The notes below the pieces were generated by a model. The model did no database searches, was not told where the DNA came from, and saw only the letters and a list, made by a program, of their open reading frames with translations. Positions 10,402 through 12,905 of a stretch of DNA of 64,000 nt are shown piece after piece. Source of the DNA: Halomicrobium zhouii. Lineage in GTDB: Archaea > Halobacteriota > Halobacteria > Halobacteriales > Haloarculaceae. Position 1 is the stretch's first letter. The number at the start of each line of letters is the position of its first letter. A program made the position numbers and the translations under genes. The stretch lies in the NCBI RefSeq assembly GCF_900114435.1, contig NZ_FOZK01000001.1, positions 1,364,001 to 1,428,000 of the forward strand. The letters are read 5' to 3'.

Positions 10402-10680
10402 GTGCTCCCCGACGTCACGCTCGGTGCGAACCTGCTCGTCTACGTCGCCCTGGGCCTCGCCGTCCCGCTATCGTTCGCCGCGGCGTACCGGGTCGTCGAC
10501 CGGCTCTCGCTGGGCAACTACGTCGATCAGTACCAGACCGTCGCGCCCGACGCGAATCGCGCGCTCGAAGCGCCGCCGAACGACGCCACTGTCGACGGAG
10601 AAATCTGTCCACACTGCGGTGAACGCAACGATCCGACGTTCGAGTTCTGCCGGTCCTGTACCGCTCGCGTGGCGGTCTGA
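10402..10680 (+). CDS. Small membrane protein with C-terminal zinc ribbon
   Basis: This 92-residue protein has one hydrophobic segment (about residues 8-28) and a soluble tail ending in a CxxC...CxxC zinc ribbon (CPHCGERNDPTFEFCRSC). Haloarchaea carry many such short anchor-plus-ribbon proteins of unknown role. The GTG start at 10402 is the most likely; a TTG at 10381 is the alternative. It is convergent with the next gene across a large palindrome. Confidence 0.7.
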   Translation: MLPDVTLGANLLVYVALGLAVPLSFAAAYRVVDRLSLGNYVDQYQTVAPDANRALEAPPNDATVDGEICPHCGERNDPTFEFCRSCTARVAV

Positions 10681-10692
10681 CGGCCCGTTCTC

Positions 10693-10774
10693 ATAGTGGT
10701 GGTTGTAACTACTTACCGGCGTTCGACGGCACCGGCCACGTCGAACGCCGGGACGGGCTTACAACCACCACTAT
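10693..10774. terminator. Nested perfect inverted repeat between convergent genes
   Basis: The outer arms are a perfect 16-base inverted repeat (10693-10708 with 10759-10774, left arm ATAGTGGTGGTTGTAA). The inner arms are a perfect 13-base repeat (10716-10728 with 10739-10751) around a 10-base loop. Two unpaired 7-base strands separate the stems. The element starts 12 bases after one stop codon and its right end touches the stop codon of the opposite gene. A bidirectional transcription terminator is the simplest reading; a short mobile-element remnant is possible. Confidence 0.6.
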
Positions 10775-11208
10775 CACCCTTTGACGCTGGTGACGTCGTA
10801 GCCCGCGTCCTGAACGTCCGCGACGATGCCCTCCTGATCGGCGCTGGCCTCGTAGTAGAAGATGAGGCGGAAGGCGCCGTCGCGGAGCAGCTGCTGGCAC
10901 TCCCAGACGAACTCGTCGCCGTCGATGGTCTTGCCCTGGTGCTGGTTCGAGGAGAAGTCCGGGTCGTCGTTGCCCGAGTAGACGTACACGTCCGCCGGGT
11001 CGTGGCCCGCGTGCTCCGAGATGATGTCGCCCACTTCCAGCGAGGCCTCCATCATCTCGATGTCCTCCTGGCCGTCGTATGTCGTGTGGACGATGACGCC
11101 GTTCAACTCGATGTCGCCCGGTTCGAGCAGCGCCTTCGTCCGCTGGTAGAGGTCGTTGTCGATGGCGTCGCGGTCGACCGTCTCCCCGTCCTCCTCAGTC
11201 GTGCCCAT
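10774..11208 (-). CDS. Haloarchaeal conserved protein, DUF5778-like
   Basis: This 144-residue soluble acidic protein has no motif from which a reaction could be assigned. Features are GVIVHTTYDGQEDIEMMEASLEVGD, VYVYSGNDDPDFSSNQHQG and FRLIFYYEASADQ. It resembles a haloarchaeal family I recall as DUF5778; this is from memory. The ATG at 11208 has a TATA-like GGTATGG 28 bases upstream, so the longer frame is not used. Confidence 0.7.
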   Translation of the reverse strand: MGTTEEDGETVDRDAIDNDLYQRTKALLEPGDIELNGVIVHTTYDGQEDIEMMEASLEVGDIISEHAGHDPADVYVYSGNDDPDFSSNQHQGKTIDGDEFVWECQQLLRDGAFRLIFYYEASADQEGIVADVQDAGYDVTSVKG

Positions 11209-11360: not shown

Positions 11361-11555
11361 TTACAGTCGCGTCAGGTTCTCCGCGCGCGGACCCTTGTCC
11401 GCCTGCACGATGTCGAACTCGACCTCCTGACCCTCTTCCAGGTCGGGGCCGCCGACGTCTTCCATGTGGAAGAAGACGTCGTCGTCGGCATCGTCAGTCT
11501 CTATGAAGCCGTACCCTCCGGTATCATTGAAGAAGTCGACTGTGCCAGTCGCCAT
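11361..11555 (-). CDS. cspA: Cold-shock domain protein (second of tandem pair)
   Basis: This 64-residue single OB-fold CspA-type protein has RNP-1-like GGYGFIET and RNP-2-like DVFFHMEDV motifs and probably binds single-stranded RNA or DNA. It begins two bases after the stop codon of its near-identical twin and must share its transcript. The two differ at about ten positions, mostly in the acidic loop and at the C-terminus. Confidence 0.93.
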   Translation of the reverse strand: MATGTVDFFNDTGGYGFIETDDADDDVFFHMEDVGGPDLEEGQEVEFDIVQADKGPRAENLTRL

Positions 11556-12872: not shown

Positions 12873-12905
12873 GTTTGGACGCTTCACGGGGCTCAGCGTC
12901 CAAAC
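12873..12905. terminator. Hairpin between convergent cis-prenyltransferase genes
   Basis: A perfect 11-base inverted repeat (GTTTGGACGCT / AGCGTCCAAAC) flanks an 11-base loop in the 140-base gap between the two convergent genes. It probably ends transcription from both sides. Confidence 0.5.

Follow-up and report, generated by a model that had tools for sequence, protein, structure and literature searches.

The MITEs of Haloquadratum walsbyi, as presented in the parts of PMC3119063 and of a review (PMC10969869) on which we draw, are short, non-coding, multicopy elements with terminal inverted repeats, an exact target duplication and strain-specific insertions. The same parts of PMC3119063 describe SMR-B of that species (HqIRS41, 80 bp), with inverted terminal repeats unrelated to known transposons and an unknown mode of mobilisation, as well as the PATEs, which are palindromic, transposase-free elements of haloarchaea. 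The REP/REPIN sequences that go with RAYT are, in the relevant portions of PMC2817692, PMC3733652 and PMC3116915, dispersed and non-autonomous palindromes of conserved structure. The palindromic element described here, of about 80 bp, shares all of these traits with the respective systems, and in a largely open-access literature on haloarchaeal MITEs, stop-codon insertion and palindromic repeats we recognised no description of its family.

The palindrome and its insertion site

The element was found in a 64-kb stretch of DNA (hereafter the window), where the original prediction had placed a nested perfect palindrome between two convergent genes. Re-reading the sequence bore this out: outer arms of 16 bases (10693-10708, ATAGTGGTGGTTGTAA; 10759-10774, TTACAACCACCACTAT) and inner arms of 13 bases, both perfect, are separated by a 7/7 internal loop, and the flanking genes converge on them, the (+) gene stopping at 10680 and the (-) DUF5778 gene at 10774-10776 (Table 1). 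The pairing was also rightly judged to be beyond chance, with 33 of 41 symmetric matches at the palindrome centre (vs. 26 for the runner-up among all possible centres in the 64-kb window) and a predicted RNA fold of positions 10670-10800 that is stronger than those of 200 shuffles (-64.8 vs. -45.8 ± 4.0 kcal/mol; z-score -4.8). When up to three mismatches were allowed, just the two palindrome arms matched the 15-base end in the window (0.14 expected), and an Rfam scan returned no family above its gathering cut-off, the hits being microRNA hairpin models alone and far below theirs (e.g. 28.8 vs. 105 bits). The palindrome had been taken to be an 82-base element, a size that we reduce to 80 bp, as A 10693 and T 10774 belong to a flanking TCA/TCA duplication. 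The element codes for no transposase. Elsewhere in the window, a cold-shock-domain gene (PF00313; domain search on the first ORF) lies at 11361-11555, with a very similar second ORF adjoining.

Table 1. Positions of the element, its parts and the neighbouring genes in the window
Feature	Position	Strand	Remark
Target duplication, left copy, TCA	10691..10693		Present once in the empty site of HArc-gm2, TTTCTCAGCCC
Palindromic element, 80 bp	10694..10773		TAGTGGTGGTTGTAA...TTACAACCACCACTA; among the 83 paired copies of G000 and G006
Left terminal inverted repeat (15 bp, perfect), outer stem 5' arm	10694..10708	+	TAGTGGTGGTTGTAA
Internal loop, left side	10709..10715		CTACTTA (family consensus CTTTTTA; TTTTT lost)
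Inner stem 5' arm	10716..10728	+	CCGGCGTTCGACG
Apical loop	10729..10738		
Inner stem 3' arm	10739..10751	+	CGTCGAACGCCGG
Internal loop, right side	10752..10758		GACGGGC (from the right end GCCCGTC; consensus GCCCGTA)
Right terminal inverted repeat (15 bp, perfect), outer stem 3' arm	10759..10773	-	
Target duplication, right copy, TCA	10774..10776	-	TGA stop codon of the DUF5778 gene
Host gene DUF5778, 165 aa	10774..11271	-	PF19090, E 2.6e-62; stop codon is the insertion site
Convergent neighbour, DUF7577/zinc-ribbon similarity	10402..10680 (start codon provisional)	+	Stop codon 10678-10680

We found an exact 3-bp direct repeat, invariably TGA or TCA, around 66 of 83 paired copies at loci of the window's own genome (G000) and of its congener HArc-gm2 (G006), one G006 copy being counted twice among the 83; the other 17 lack an exact repeat. 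Because the repeat keeps its letters on both sides of the palindrome, it is a target duplication and not part of the palindrome. The favoured insertion site is CTSAG. We then compared nine G000 sites against six congeners, and G006 was empty at seven of them (the window, L009, L011, L012, L016, L026 and L033; flanks 84-95% identical) and filled at two (L023 and L040). At the window site, G006 presents a perfect CTCAG target with one TCA, and G004 is likewise without the element. The G006 homologues of L016 and L026 stop at TAA, in place of the TGA of G000; in the same comparison the right flank of L033 aligns poorly near the junction, and L012 has a 1-base gap. On grounds of parsimony, we infer that the empty sites reflect insertion in G000 and not precise excision.

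The 3-bp duplication and the empty sites in HArc-gm2 therefore argue for a non-autonomous, MITE-like insertion, and we put the probability that the palindrome is an intact copy of such a mobile element at roughly 0.88. The original prediction had considered a MITE remnant; the assignment stands, and the remnant does not, given perfect ends, a 3-bp duplication and a homologous site that is empty in HArc-gm2 and in G004. Pairing in close relatives, whose loss had been named as a ground for refutation, is inapplicable as a test here because the whole element is absent at their site. With sites filled in one and empty in the other, two close species offer a natural experiment on the effect of a 3'-UTR hairpin on archaeal transcripts, and on the missing enzyme.

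A dispersed family and its double stem

Searched for in the genome and its relatives, as had been proposed, the arm turned up as dispersed copies in G000 and in HArc-gm2, an organism that, in the part of PMC9726719 that treats it, stands near Halomicrobium zhouii by 16S and near Halosiccatus by phylogenomics. BLAST with 141 bases gave 62 matches in G000, many of which pair up as opposite strands of a single palindrome, and among the 59 genomes searched strong matches were found only in G000 and G006, those in 10 other genomes being partial (≤42 bits). Exact matches to the 15-base end number 26 in G000 and 66 in G006, and 390 other genomes of the order have none; with up to two mismatches, the end motif occurs 67 and 112 times, respectively (vs. 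4 and 3 for a reversed control). A looser end, TSATAGTGNNNGTTGTAA, revealed relatives in 12 of the 146 genomes of the family (control 0), with the end triplet ACT in G005 and mostly ACC in genus g4, and a still looser one gave 97 matches in G009 (control 0), where a second subfamily ends in TACGGTCGGTTGTAA. G009 also holds identical 79-bp copies at separate loci (five and four of one sequence), which indicate recent movement. Similar stretches lie in plasmid records of Haloarcula marina, Haloarcula sp. JP-L23, Haloarcula sp. GH36 and Halapricum desulfuricans; the copies of JP-L23 and H. desulfuricans are flanked by TGA/TGA and TCA/TCA, and that of H. marina is degraded on its left side. Three pattern scans of viral contigs gave 4, 0 and 13 loci, which were single unpaired matches wherever inspected, and none of 10 loci in bacterial contigs was paired in the orientation of the element.

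The commonest length is 78-80 bp across subfamilies, with an outer stem of about 15 bp, the 7/7 internal loop, which in most copies is unpaired at its first position by a C-C or G-G mismatch, and the inner stem; in other genera this layout is kept with different arms and cores. The end triplets GTG, GTC, ACC and ACT change in step on both arms, and 96.9% of cells in the terminal inverted repeats are paired (51 distinct rows). Taken alone, such in-step changes could reflect one protein reading both ends. The outer stem together with the base of the inner stem is 95% paired, with 66 cells changed on both sides, a level that none of 500 shuffles attained. The MAFFT alignment shifted the inner stem, so this count took only its base; the inner stem itself was counted gaplessly and is 85% paired in 66 distinct elements (vs. 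62% after shuffling), with changes on both sides in 10 of its 13 pairs. This stem would not be needed by an end-reading protein, yet it covaries. That covariation keeps the double-stem fold across genera suggests that the fold probably matters for mobility, for example through a hairpin or cruciform form that may act during transposition, and constant length and fold despite changing sequence allow the idea of structure-read transposition in archaea to be tested on this family.

Some copies are longer, up to 365 bp, and many of these measure 80 + 57n (137, 194, 251, 308 and 365 bp), from 57-bp modules of two hairpins each, whose stems vary and whose loops resemble one another (GARCNNNGYGA-like); of 30 modules extracted, 29 have a length of exactly 57 bp. 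The modules are frequent in G004 (32 matches), yet end motifs there do not exceed the control, and they are therefore a separate repeat system. Module arrays occur at L085:541-820, L084, L081, L029, L024, L020 and other loci, many of them outside the palindromic element, as in G004. In the window, three single hairpins, at 12873, 25680 and 26004, have a loop of this kind on stems of 5-11 bp (0.2 expected under a second-order Markov control). A group of 106-107 bp (L042, L087, L088, L104, L106 and L116) has the same ends and duplication around an unrelated core, and therefore one enzyme probably moves several families.

Mobilisation, stop codons and rival explanations

We propose that an enzyme supplied in trans would recognise both ends, TAGTG...GTTGTAA, and put the 80-bp palindrome into TSA, with a preference for CTSAG, so that TSA is duplicated. 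One strand of TSA reads TGA, and a copy that enters a TGA stop codon therefore restores it and leaves the host gene whole. Among the transposase families searched (PF01609, PF13586 and IS630-type), we found no autonomous transposon sharing the ends of the element: none of the PF01609 (IS5-type) transposases in G000 and G006 has them, PF13586 had no match in seven genomes, and an IS630-type relative in G000 is without them. Lone end motifs in G006, G009, G274, G029, G005 and G000 belonged to no full transposon, those inspected being degraded copies or isolated motifs. Some IS5-family groups typically duplicate 3 bp of the form T-N-A, and we treat this as a lead only.

Palindromes that are orphans, present in dozens of copies in G000, G006 and G009, more conserved in structure than in sequence and lacking a parent with the same ends could also be REPIN-like, that is, moved by a single-copy, domesticated host tyrosine (Y1) transposase of the RAYT kind and not by a parent transposon. 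REP and REPIN sequences are defined by a GTAG tag at the base of the hairpin, whereas the ends here read TSA-TAGTG or TSA-TACGG and carry no such tag; and to our knowledge Y1 transposition makes no target duplication, whereas exact TSA duplications of 3 bp are present. We therefore consider this origin unlikely.

Returning to the MITE-like element, in the window the duplicated TCA coincides with the TGA stop codon of the DUF5778 gene, which is therefore intact. We orientated each copy so that its duplication read TGA and examined the upstream coding frame. In a first count this frame ended exactly at the TGA in 64 of 96 copies (0 in frames +1/+2); in a uniform re-detection 75 of 133 copies lay at a stop codon, 2 fell in frames +1/+2, 17 had their best frame on the opposite strand and 39 had no clear frame. 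Both counts are confined to copies with an exact duplication, leaving out 17 of the 83 paired copies and others from the wider set, and the 133-copy count is further confined to copies matching the general end pattern. The share at stop codons was 16/24 in G000, 34/42 in G006 (together 50/66 by both ways of counting) and 1/1 in G018, and lower in G005 (5/15) and genus g4 (19/51). With crude gene calls (ORF and third-position G+C), neutral models that tolerate stop codons and intergenic sites predict a share of 0.15-0.23 for a two-position motif and 0.11-0.34 for wider motifs, and those that count 3' intergenic sites only predict 0.21-0.63; under the strictest of these (3' intergenic only, 6-position motif, 64-kb window), as much as 63% would be expected at stops. 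G000 and G006 thus show a clear excess under all but the strictest model, and this excess arises through a preference in targeting, through purging of insertions elsewhere, or through both. It is a tentative and rather doubtful proposal that, in a family extending across several Haloarculaceae genera, the enzyme reads the double stem in its folded form and has stop codons as its true target (in a GAC-TGA-G context), each insertion recreating the stop. If true, the element would have a built-in harmless landing site, and such a stop-regenerating mobile element would explain scores of harmless insertions in a gene-dense genome.

A host-owned bidirectional terminator or 3'-end processing hairpin, selected downstream of genes, would likewise place many copies directly at stop codons, and it would accord with the strong hairpin and with the TTTTT on one side of the internal loop in the family consensus. 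The terminator had been put forward as one reading of the palindrome, and as a reason for its presence it fares badly: copies at stops show no bias in the orientation of the T-rich side (12 vs. 14 for the other side), the window copy has lost its TTTTT, the homologues of the neighbouring genes manage without the element, and neither the direct 3-bp duplications nor the precise empty sites are in keeping with it. We regard this explanation as slightly less probable still than a REPIN-like origin. An origin of the palindromes by deletion from an IS630-type transposon, like the one inside the G009 copy L262, where ends identical to those of the element and TGA/TGA surround 1193 bp with a DDE_3 transposase, is refuted, as a second G009 copy aligns over the inner 1113 bp only, the three other copies have flanks unlike the element, and in L262 the transposon splits an 80-bp element at its centre, 40/40.

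This 1113-bp IS630-type (DDE_3) element, whose transposase is split over two overlapping frames, occurs in G009 at L262:545-1657, L282:925-2037, L328:707-1819 and L329:738-1850, and all four nearly identical copies lie centrally in an inverted repeat, which in one case is an 80-bp element, cut 40/40. Insertion at such centres fits, if indirectly, with extrusion of palindromes in the cell. The cruciform suggested in the original prediction is thus favoured indirectly, by the covariation of both stems across genera and by an IS630-type element that enters inverted-repeat centres, one of them of such a palindrome. Three 79-bp copies of G009 (L263:369-446, L264 and L280) harbour, all at one and the same position, a second nested element whose ends are TACTGCCGGCTGTAA or TACTGGTGGCTATAA; the duplication in L263 is TAA.

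Comparison with known systems

The nearest published descriptions, as far as the cited portions of PMC3119063 extend, are the Haloquadratum MITEs and the 80-bp SMR-B. Unlike prokaryotic MITEs, the palindromic element has no parent transposon with related ends among the transposase families searched, is an entirely symmetric double stem and not symmetric at its ends alone, is nearly constant in length (78-80 bp), and has a duplication that is often the stop codon of a gene. The SMRs, in those portions of PMC3119063, make no target duplication and land in other mobile elements, whereas this element makes a 3-bp duplication and is found at many stops; the comparison with HqIRS41 is by description. 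The PATEs, in the same source portions, have neither inverted terminal repeats nor a target duplication, whereas the palindromic element has both. From REP/REPIN sequences, as portrayed in the relevant parts of PMC2817692, PMC3733652 and PMC3116915, it differs by its TSA duplication, its lack of a GTAG tag, its size and its double-stem layout.
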